This document shows, piece after piece, positions 30,836 to 33,790 of a stretch of DNA of 33,790 nucleotides. How positions within the stretch are numbered: the stretch's first letter is position 1; each line of letters begins with the position of its first letter. Made by a program: the position numbers and the translations under genes. The notes below the pieces were generated by a model, which did no database searches, was not told the DNA's origin, and worked only from the letters and a program-made list of their open reading frames with translations. Origin of the DNA: Acidobacteriaceae bacterium (GTDB lineage: Bacteria > Acidobacteriota > Terriglobia > Terriglobales > Acidobacteriaceae); assembly GCA_003139795.1 (NCBI GenBank), contig PLGM01000119.1:13921-47710 (forward strand), read 5' to 3'.

Positions 30836-31744
30836 CTACGAGAGTTCCAACTTTGCAAGTGCGCTTAACAAGATATCCCGGTCTTTGAGAGAAGGCCCGA
30901 TCACAGGCTTCGGGACAAGGGCGACGACCTCGTCCATATCCCAAATGTGCTTTGTAAGGCCTGCCTCCATTGCCGGCGATACGCGGAGCGACTTGTGTTG
31001 CCAGCAAAAGTTGTAATACATGAAGTTCAAAGCTACTGCGTTCCTATGCTGTTCGAGTGTTTTGCTGAAGCCGTTTGTCTTTCTGATGAACCGCCTCATT
31101 GCCATCCTCATATTGAGGTTTTGCCTCTCCACGTGAGACGTGGTCGCATAGGCTAGATCAGGATTGCCCGAAATTACACTTCGAATGGATATCTTCTTGT
31201 TCCCGGAGGAAGTATTTTGATGGCCAGCGTTCTGTGGAACTTCGAACTTTCGTAGCATTACGTAGTCGATGTCGCATCCAAAGGCCTTCTCTATTGCCTC
31301 TGGGTAGAGCCTCAAGCCGTCGGTAGTCATCTGGACTCGGCTAGCAATCCGGCTGGCGCAATCCGCCAGGAATCGCGTTGCCGTTGGCTCATCTCGCTTG
31401 TTGACGGCGTACGATATGACGAGCTTGGTATCCGGGTCAAATGCGACCCAAGTCCAGGCATCGCCGCACCCTTTAGCTAATTTAGCCACATCGGCGTTCT
31501 TTTGCTTGCACCCTACGTAGCTCCAAATTTCGTCGACTTCTAGCCGTTTCGGCTTGAGGTTACGCACGTGCTTATTGTGATAGTCAGCACAGGTGGTTCC
31601 CAAGTCAGCAACAAGCTTGAGGATAGCCGTCTTCGATACGCCCGTCATCCGCTCGATTCCCCTGATTGAATTGCCCTCAACCAGCATGCTCGCAACCCTT
31701 GATCGAATCTCCGGTTGCAACTGTCTTAGTTCTAGCAGGCACAT
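30836..31744 (-). CDS. IS1-family-like transposase, apparently intact
   Basis: HTH region plus VDEIWSYVGCKQKN, DPDTKLVISY, and HVERQNLNMRMAMRRFIRKTNGFSKTLEQH. Confidence 0.88.
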   Translation of the reverse strand: MCLLELRQLQPEIRSRVASMLVEGNSIRGIERMTGVSKTAILKLVADLGTTCADYHNKHVRNLKPKRLEVDEIWSYVGCKQKNADVAKLAKGCGDAWTWVAFDPDTKLVISYAVNKRDEPTATRFLADCASRIASRVQMTTDGLRLYPEAIEKAFGCDIDYVMLRKFEVPQNAGHQNTSSGNKKISIRSVISGNPDLAYATTSHVERQNLNMRMAMRRFIRKTNGFSKTLEQHRNAVALNFMYYNFCWQHKSLRVSPAMEAGLTKHIWDMDEVVALVPKPVIGPSLKDRDILLSALAKLELS

Positions 31745-31902: not shown

Positions 31903-32784
31903 TTAAGCAAGTGCTCGGCGCAAGATCTCGCGGTCTACAAGGTTCACACGAACAACAGGCTTTGGGATCATCACCAGGAGATGCTCCAAGTCCCATATCG
32001 ATGTGCTCAGGCCAGCTTGCATAGCCGGCGTTACTCGCAACGTCTGATGGACCCGGCAGAAGTTGTAGTACATCACGTAGAGAGCCACCGAGTTTGCATG
32101 GTTTTCAAGCTTCTTGCTGAATGCGTTGGTAAGCCTTGTGTACCGCCGCATCATCATCCTCATGCTCAGGTTCTCCCGCTCGATATAGGACGTGCTAACG
32201 TAGGCTGGGTCTGGGTTACCAGTGACGGTCTTCATGTCCGCGCCGATCACGCGGCCAGGAGAATACCGGCGCTGTTCCTCGTCTGAAGGCGCTCCGTAAA
32301 TCTTCTGAAGTTGCGCGTAGTCAATGTCGGATCCGAAGGCTTCTTCGACAGCATCTGGGTATAAGCGAAGGGCGTCCGTGGTGAACTGGAGGCGGCTTAT
32401 TACGCGGCTGGAGCAATCCGCAATGAATTCTTTTGCGGAGGCGGCATCTCTGGTGCCCACCAGGTATGACACGATCAGTTTGGTGTCGGCGTCGATTGCC
32501 ACCCAAGTCCAGACGTCACCCCATCCGTTAGCCTTCTGAGATGACGAAGCGTTCTTCTGCTTACAGCCAACGAAGCTTCAGATCTCGTCGGCCTGTAGCC
32601 GCCTGGGCTTCAGATTCCGCACGCGAGCGTCGTGTGAGACGGCGCACGCCGTTCCTAAATCGTTCAAAAGCTTGAGAATGGTAGTCTTCGAATTGCCGGT
32701 TAGCCTCGATATCGAACGAACCGAAACCCCCTCCACCAGCAAGTTTGCGATCATCTTCCGTTTGCAGATCGGCAGTATTCTCAT
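31903..32784 (-). pseudogene. IS1-family-like transposase interrupted by one in-frame TGA
   Basis: MRILPICKRKMIANLLVEGVSVRSISRLTG...RRLQADEI*SFVGCKQKN...; TGA at 32578-32580 replaces the Trp of DEIWS; frame continues unbroken to 31903. Confidence 0.85.
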
Positions 32785-32863
32785 AAAGAGCCCCTTTCAA
32801 TATGCTGATCATAGTGAGCATTCCTTCACCATGCAACGTTACTTAAGATAGAAACTCATCAAC

Positions 32864-32898
32864 TTACACGCGCAAAGTGAGTAAATGCTCGCGTACAA
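32864..32898. promoter_or_regulatory. Candidate operator of the LexA-like regulator
   Basis: TTACACGCG (32864-32872) and CGCGTACAA (32890-32898), inverted with 7/9 match, directly upstream of the probable GTG start at 32907. Confidence 0.35.
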
Positions 32899-32906
32899 TT
32901 CCAAGT

Positions 32907-33482
32907 GTGAGGAACCGGGATTCTGAACACCTGGCCAAGCTGCGGGACTACTACGCCCGGCACGGGGTTATGCCGTCTTTTAGTGGGATATCGAAGCTGC
33001 TTGGCTTTCGTTCGACTGCGGCCGTGGCGGGCCTGACTAGCAGGCTCAAGACAGCCGGATACCTAACCTCTACGCCGGATCGTCGCCTGTGCCCGGGGGA
33101 CCGTTTCTTTGAATACCCTCAGGTTGGGACGATTCAGGCCATCAACCACCTTCCCGCCTTCGAGATACGGGGAGAACGCTGCAACATTGTCGAGCGCCTT
33201 GTAGGCATGCCATCGCAAACTGTGATCTTAAAGGTTCGCGGAGAATCGATGATTGAAGCCGGCATTATGTCCGGCGACTATGTCGTCGTTCAGAAGGGGG
33301 CACAGGCCAAAGTCGGTGACATCGTAGTTGCTGCCACCGGTCAAGATTACACTGTCAAATTCCTGGTCCGTGATGACGACGGTTTTTACCTCAAGGCCGG
33401 CAATAAGGAATACAAGGACATCCGCCCCGTGGAATCGATGGAAATCTTTGGTGTCGTTACGGGGTCATTTCGCCAATACTGA
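32907..33482 (+). CDS. LexA/S24-family transcriptional regulator
   Basis: LexA-like wHTH (HLAKLRDYYARHGVMPSFSGISKLLGFRSTAAVAGLTSRLKTAGYL), catalytic Ser in GESMIEAGIMSGDYVVVQ and Lys in YTVKFLVRDDDGFYLKAGN. GTG 32907 preferred over GTG 32877. Confidence 0.9.
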   Translation: MRNRDSEHLAKLRDYYARHGVMPSFSGISKLLGFRSTAAVAGLTSRLKTAGYLTSTPDRRLCPGDRFFEYPQVGTIQAINHLPAFEIRGERCNIVERLVGMPSQTVILKVRGESMIEAGIMSGDYVVVQKGAQAKVGDIVVAATGQDYTVKFLVRDDDGFYLKAGNKEYKDIRPVESMEIFGVVTGSFRQY

Positions 33483-33514
33483 ATTGGAACTAGTTTTTTT
33501 GAGGAGGCAGCATT

Positions 33515-33790
33515 TTGAGTAACTTGAATTTAAAACCATCGAGCGCAGCTGTACAGAAGTACTACGCTACGGTCGAGCAATTTTCCCGTGCCCACTTCGA
33601 TAAAGAGGGCAACATCCGCGGCGCATTCGAAGACCTTCTCAAAAACTGCTCTCGCCAGTACGGCTGGACCGTTGTTCCCGAGTATTCGTTTCCTCGTAAA
33701 GATCGAAATCCCGCGAGCATCGACGGGGCGATTCTTGACGCCTTCAATATTCCGCGCGGCTATTGGGAGCTGGACAGTGCCAGGTTCTCT
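33515..33790 (+). CDS. N-terminus of putative type ISP restriction-modification enzyme (truncated by window edge)
   Basis: TTG start with GAGGAGG SD at 33501; KYYATVEQFSRAHFDKEGNIRGAFEDLLKNCSRQYGWTVVPEYSF...SIDGAILDAFNIPRGYWE resembles the N-terminal region of type ISP enzymes. Confidence 0.65.
   Translation, partial: MSNLNLKPSSAAVQKYYATVEQFSRAHFDKEGNIRGAFEDLLKNCSRQYGWTVVPEYSFPRKDRNPASIDGAILDAFNIPRGYWELDSARFS

Follow-up and report, generated by a model that had tools for sequence, protein, structure and literature searches.

Beyond the C proteins and the Cap/BrxR regulators, it is poorly known how restriction systems are switched. The Cap controllers (CapW/BrxR, CapH with CapP, and CapK with CapS) adjoin immune operons, and several of them respond to DNA damage (PMC9122601, PMC9122588, PMC13373217). 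Neither for RptR nor for the C proteins has an S24 domain been described (PMC12255303, PMC3874152). Within the LexA-like (S24) repressors, the Ala-Gly residues at which cleavage takes place are described as strictly conserved (PMC7101444), and the G85D substitution at the corresponding glycine makes E. coli LexA uncleavable (PMC6363387). Here we analyze a LexA-like gene that precedes a restriction gene near the end of a contig. The window, i.e. the whole stretch of 33,790 nucleotides that was analyzed, covers the final 33.8 kb of contig C161 (47,710 bases) in a genome of 6.34 Mb and 412 contigs; its right end is the contig end, so that nothing can be read further to the right. We propose, with moderate confidence, that a small subfamily of LexA-type (S24) repressors acts as a local switch at the head of methylation-restriction operons, and that the operon behind the switch has been exchanged in the course of evolution.

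The relevant features of the window are the following:
30836-31744, minus strand: IS1-like transposase ORF of 302 aa, the outer of two (DDE_Tnp_IS1, E=7e-11)
31903-32784, minus strand: inner IS1-like transposase ORF, a pseudogene, divergent from the regulator (DDE_Tnp_IS1, E=1e-5)
32785-32906, no strand: divergent intergenic region with a -10-like TACAAT at 32894-32899 (alignments with relatives)
32907-33482, plus strand: LexA-like regulator of 191 aa, or 201 aa when started at GTG 32877 (Pfam; start position of relatives)
33135-33143, plus strand: self-cleavage site, with Gln-Ala-Ile replacing x-Ala-Gly (alignment of 37 S24 relatives)
33246-33248, plus strand: catalytic Ser of the S24 Ser-Lys dyad, conserved (alignment with LexA and UmuD)
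33357-33359, plus strand: catalytic Lys of the same dyad, conserved (same alignment)
33502-33507, plus strand: Shine-Dalgarno sequence AGGAGG, 7 nt ahead of TTG 33515 (sequence)
33515-33769, plus strand: codons 1-85 of an ISP-like enzyme for restriction and methylation, of the helicase-less, type IIG-like kind (homology to L002)
33770-33790, no strand: terminus of a multicopy insertion sequence, most likely interrupting the ISP-like gene (repeated terminus, unrelated flanks)

The initial annotation had recognized a LexA-like repressor, and the regulator ORF is indeed intact, with a LexA-type winged helix-turn-helix (HTH) domain at the N-terminus (LexA_DNA_bind, E=2e-5, 24.5 bits against a Pfam cut-off of 23.7) and an S24 domain at the C-terminus (Peptidase_S24, E=3e-22, 78.9 bits). 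Its TIGR00498 score of 96.7 bits stays below the cut-off of 110.95 and thus misses the equivalog level for LexA proper. An ordinary LexA is also encoded in the source genome (contig C141), and the regulator is 34% identical to it. The branches in a tree of the regulators were long, which makes its placement there unreliable, and no relatives were recovered among viral contigs, whether the regulator was queried alone or as a two-row alignment. Judged from the alignment with its relatives, GTG 32907 is more likely the start than GTG 32877. The stop codon (33480-33482) is separated from the next gene by 32 bp (33483-33514), exactly as had been reported, and the strong Shine-Dalgarno sequence of that gene was likewise confirmed.

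The regulator deviates at the self-cleavage site. All 37 aligned relatives, comprising 35 sequences in a first alignment (the genome's own LexA, E. coli LexA and a phage UmuD among them) and the two closest homologs, from genomes G714 and G752, possess Ala-Gly, and the window regulator alone has Ile in place of Gly. The position of its Ala-Ile is comparable to that of G85D in E. coli LexA (PMC6363387). Given the loss of the cleavage-site Gly, induction of this copy by DNA damage is unlikely: it is predicted to be non-inducible, and self-cleavage should not be taken for granted in its case.

The ORF behind the regulator, which starts with TTG, runs into the contig end. Its first 92 residues had been likened to the N-terminal region of type ISP enzymes; the likeness holds for residues 1-85, which are 72% identical to a protein from the same genus (L002) that continues to 1025 aa, but the last 7 residues are encoded by insertion-sequence DNA. 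The 92-residue fragment by itself has no Pfam match and hits type IIG in PADLOC at E=0.04. Full-length L002 also matches type IIG in PADLOC, and such relatives are named type ISP by NCBI. L002 contains the domains ISP_coupler, N6_Mtase, Eco57I and Type_ISP_C and lacks a helicase, so that the expected combination of helicase and methylase domains is borne out in the intact relatives for the methylase but not for the helicase, the window gene itself being cut. A conserved Asp and a WEAKD motif in the aligned N-termini constitute a D...ExK nuclease signature; Asp70 and Glu85 of this signature are present in the window gene, and the Lys of ExK is missing, as the reading is cut right after the Glu.

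The point of interruption can be given to the nucleotide. The DNA of codons 80-85 is identical to that of L002 through the GAG of codon 85, and is then followed by CTGGACAGTGCCAGGTTCTCT. A sequence of the type GGACAGTGCC(A/G)GTTCTC occurs at 11 sites in the genome, nearly all of them contig ends and always with different flanks, and the shared terminus measures 19-21 nt. Judged by this repetition, the last 21 bases of the window are the end of a multicopy insertion sequence. One contig carries 70 more bases beyond the terminus, relatives of which, found in other genomes of the family, neighbour a DUF6788 ORF and in one case also a DDE_5 transposase. The remainder of the ISP-like gene was absent from the 6.3 Mb assembly in a search that did recover residues 1-85, and it was absent from the other contig ends bounded by insertion sequences. 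An ISP gene on contig C209, considered as the missing remainder, encodes a different enzyme (29% identical). Given the occurrence of the terminus at 11 unrelated sites and a remainder that was not found, the ISP-like gene is most likely interrupted by the insertion sequence. The contig does end exactly inside a repeat, where assemblers fail, and one might therefore suppose that in the cell the gene is whole and that its junction with the insertion sequence is an artefact of assembly. We consider that highly improbable, as the terminus joins unrelated flanks in the way of a real multicopy element, the ISP reading is lost at the junction, and the missing part was found nowhere in the assembly.

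Other genomes also carry incomplete ISP-like genes. In another species (L003 8001-11332, equal to G675:C59) the break likewise falls at codon 85: in place of residues 86-885, the opposite strand encodes a BsuBI/PstI-type endonuclease and an Eco57I-type methylase, and the ISP C-terminus (886-1010) is kept. The gene at L130 592-3464 (G726:C202) retains residues 1-101 and 858-1013, which flank an ATPase-like ORF of 478 aa and another ORF of 189 aa, and in three further genomes (G469, G448 and G564) only residues 1 to about 121-124 are kept. It seems that the front of the ISP-like gene is a place from which the middle part has repeatedly been replaced by other genes.

The regulator had initially been viewed as the dedicated controller of a single-chain restriction enzyme. 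The adjacency of the two genes and the strong Shine-Dalgarno sequence in the window speak for such a pair, but no ORF resembling the regulator was found when 38 further ISP-type loci of the phylum and family were inspected, in most cases over about 1.5 kb to either side. LexA-like genes were not annotated upstream of the plasmid-borne ISP relatives that were inspected, and there was no ISP gene beside the 30-odd more distant relatives of the regulator. Moreover, the two closest regulators, those of G714 and G752, serve other systems. Since the pair is not conserved, the regulator has no exclusive tie to ISP enzymes, and a dedicated LexA-ISP pair, already largely refuted, is hardly tenable. What survives of the claim is local control of the operon behind the regulator, a reading that is fair because the two closest relatives head methylation-restriction operons as well, as compared with 1 of 50 other LexA-like loci.

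This subfamily was delineated in 398 genomes of the family and subsequently in 80 genomes of the genus. Within the latter it has three members, namely the window regulator and its homologs in G752 (62% identical) and G714 (53% identical), which are in sister species; the sample is thus confined to one genus and to fragmented, multi-contig assemblies. It is set apart by a score gap (304 bits for the subfamily versus ~78 for ordinary LexA), with only an HTH-only fragment, at 94 bits, in between. An ORF related to the regulator in its HTH part alone (LexA_DNA_bind, E=1e-9), in which an unrelated C-terminus replaces S24, was observed at L128 4527-4892 (G714:C247).

All three members head methylation-restriction operons on the same strand, and each operon is of a different type. 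The window regulator is followed by the ISP/IIG-like gene, whereas in G714 a type III Mod (628 aa) and Res (870 aa) lie behind the regulator at a gap of ~73 bp, and in G752 an Eco57I-like methylase follows after 15 bp, then two ORFs and then a DrmA-type helicase of 1402 aa. The regulator and the first operon genes look intact in both G714 and G752. The two intervening ORFs (605 and 270 aa; L160 6303-8947) had no family match in Pfam or PADLOC. For comparison, we recorded which gene follows each of 50 other LexA-like loci; this yielded 9 Y-family polymerases, 7 DNA glycosylases and a single methylase. The difference (3/3 versus 1/50; Fisher p=1.7e-4) is indicative only, the p value being optimistic because the controls are partly orthologous to one another. 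In a different Acidobacteriota family, an ordinary LexA-like gene is followed by a methylase-like gene (L017 1606-3039, G177).

The window aligns colinearly with G752 across the IS1-like transposase, the intergenic region and the regulator, at 64% DNA identity and with no large gaps, and the homology ends exactly at the regulator stop codon. On this alignment, the upstream block of transposase and regulator is old and shared and the operon behind it differs. Both this boundary and the gene order bear on the possibility that the regulator is a stray SOS-mutagenesis S24 gene, of the kind associated with UmuD and ImuA, that came to lie where defence genes cluster and precedes the R-M genes only by coincidence. 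On plasmids, the nearest relatives (34-42% identical) lie in front of imuA and a Y-family polymerase, the S24 half of the regulator is ~40% identical to UmuD, and none of the 38 other ISP-type loci carries the regulator. Coincidence accounts poorly, however, for three of three closest relatives directly preceding three unrelated methylation-restriction operons, on the same strand and with gaps of 15-73 bp, or for homology that stops precisely at the stop codon, and we regard this explanation as rather unlikely. The more distant plasmid relatives are found ahead of imuA/imuB, or ahead of a Gp37/Gp68-like gene and tcmP, and not ahead of R-M genes. On a Comamonas plasmid (L061 3489-5880), the genes behind an S24 regulator that is ~40% identical to that of G714 are one of the Gp37/Gp68 family and tcmP, a gene order that is possibly another defence context.

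On the upstream side, two IS1-like elements had been noted to the left of the regulator, and both ORFs do match DDE_Tnp_IS1. The copies are ~67% identical at the DNA level. The inner one contains an in-frame TGA (32578-32580), which is TGG in G752, where a colinear transposase fragment precedes the regulator. Terminal inverted repeats of these elements were looked for and not found. The idea that an IS1-like element had removed the regulator promoter was dropped, as the region is colinear in G752. Around 6-7 nt separate the TACAAT from the GTG at 32907, and the same place is occupied by TATAAT in G752 and TACGAT in G714, which suggests a leaderless or near-leaderless transcript. Consensus sigma-70 promoters were not found, and the SOS-box pattern CGAACN4GTTCG did not occur near the regulator, its count being as expected by chance. 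Operator palindromes in the window and in G714 were no more numerous than in shuffled sequences; the G752 locus has the palindrome AAATAAG-CA-CTTATTT, and ~5% of shuffles reach the G752 count. A common operator was not detected across the regulator loci, a comparison of three sequences only. Among the left-side genes checked, which include a MacB/FtsX permease, a CAAX protease, a penicillin amidase and an ATP-synthase subunit, no other defence genes were seen.

A divergent transposase lies just upstream of the regulator in all three loci, and the IS1-like gene and the regulator are colinear in two genomes. The regulator could accordingly be part of a mobile element in which transposase and regulator are the constant components and the restriction genes are cargo, so that it mainly controls transposition. 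The transposases are IS1-like in the window and in G752, but that of G714 is of a different family (IS1595), the one in the window is a pseudogene, and convincing long-range terminal inverted repeats were not found around the module in G714 or G752. All in all, this alternative appears improbable.

For the local switch of exchangeable operons proposed above, the following course of events can be envisaged. A regulator dimer would bind its own promoter region and hold expression of the operon low; upon damage or phage attack, RecA-ssDNA would induce autocleavage and expression would be released. By analogy with LexA and the Cap controllers (PMC13373217, PMC9122601), repression of its own operon and release on RecA-ssDNA are most likely how the subfamily works; the anti-phage role is something we infer along with the repression and the RecA trigger. 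Behind a regulator that is kept, the operon would have been swapped between an ISP/IIG-like enzyme (window), type III R-M (G714) and a methylase with a DrmA-type helicase (G752). In the window itself, with Ile for the scissile Gly and an enzyme cut after 85 codons, the switch would be stuck and pointless: the regulator is probably locked and its enzyme dead. A more far-reaching claim, which we put forward tentatively and with some doubt, is that a single-protein, self-cleaving LexA-type repressor serves as an interchangeable R-M controller that ties expression directly to RecA-ssDNA, the Gly-to-Ile change in the window having left a permanently closed switch beside a dead enzyme. If true, restriction would be linked to DNA damage by one LexA-type local controller, with no need for a second protein, and the swapping of operons behind a constant regulator would mean that control modules and effectors evolve separately.

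Compared with LexA, the regulators have the same winged HTH and S24 domain with a Ser-Lys dyad, a similar length (~190-200 aa) and, in G714 and G752, the same Ala-Gly; they differ in forming a separate subfamily that sits ahead of restriction operons and, for the window copy, in the Ala-Ile at the cleavage site. The relatives of the ISP-like gene share the nuclease motif, ISP coupler, N6 methylase and Type ISP specificity domain with the type ISP enzymes LlaBIII and LlaGI (PMC4666363), but lack the SF2 helicase, measure ~1025 aa and have type IIG as their best full-length PADLOC match. With RptR and the C proteins (PMC12255303, PMC3874152) the regulator has in common that a small gene heads an R-M locus as its (here putative) transcriptional control, whereas RptR is a compact four-helix protein of type I R-M without a sensor domain (PMC12255303) and the C proteins are HTH proteins of type II R-M (PMC3874152). 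A limited search of the literature gave no S24-type controller of such operons, and the novelty is therefore provisional. The Cap controllers are WYL proteins, an HTH protein with a separate protease, or a kinase with a STAS-wHTH protein, and none is a single LexA-type self-cleaving repressor; what they share with the present subfamily is that local regulator genes stand beside diverse, exchangeable defence operons, here three operon types at three loci.
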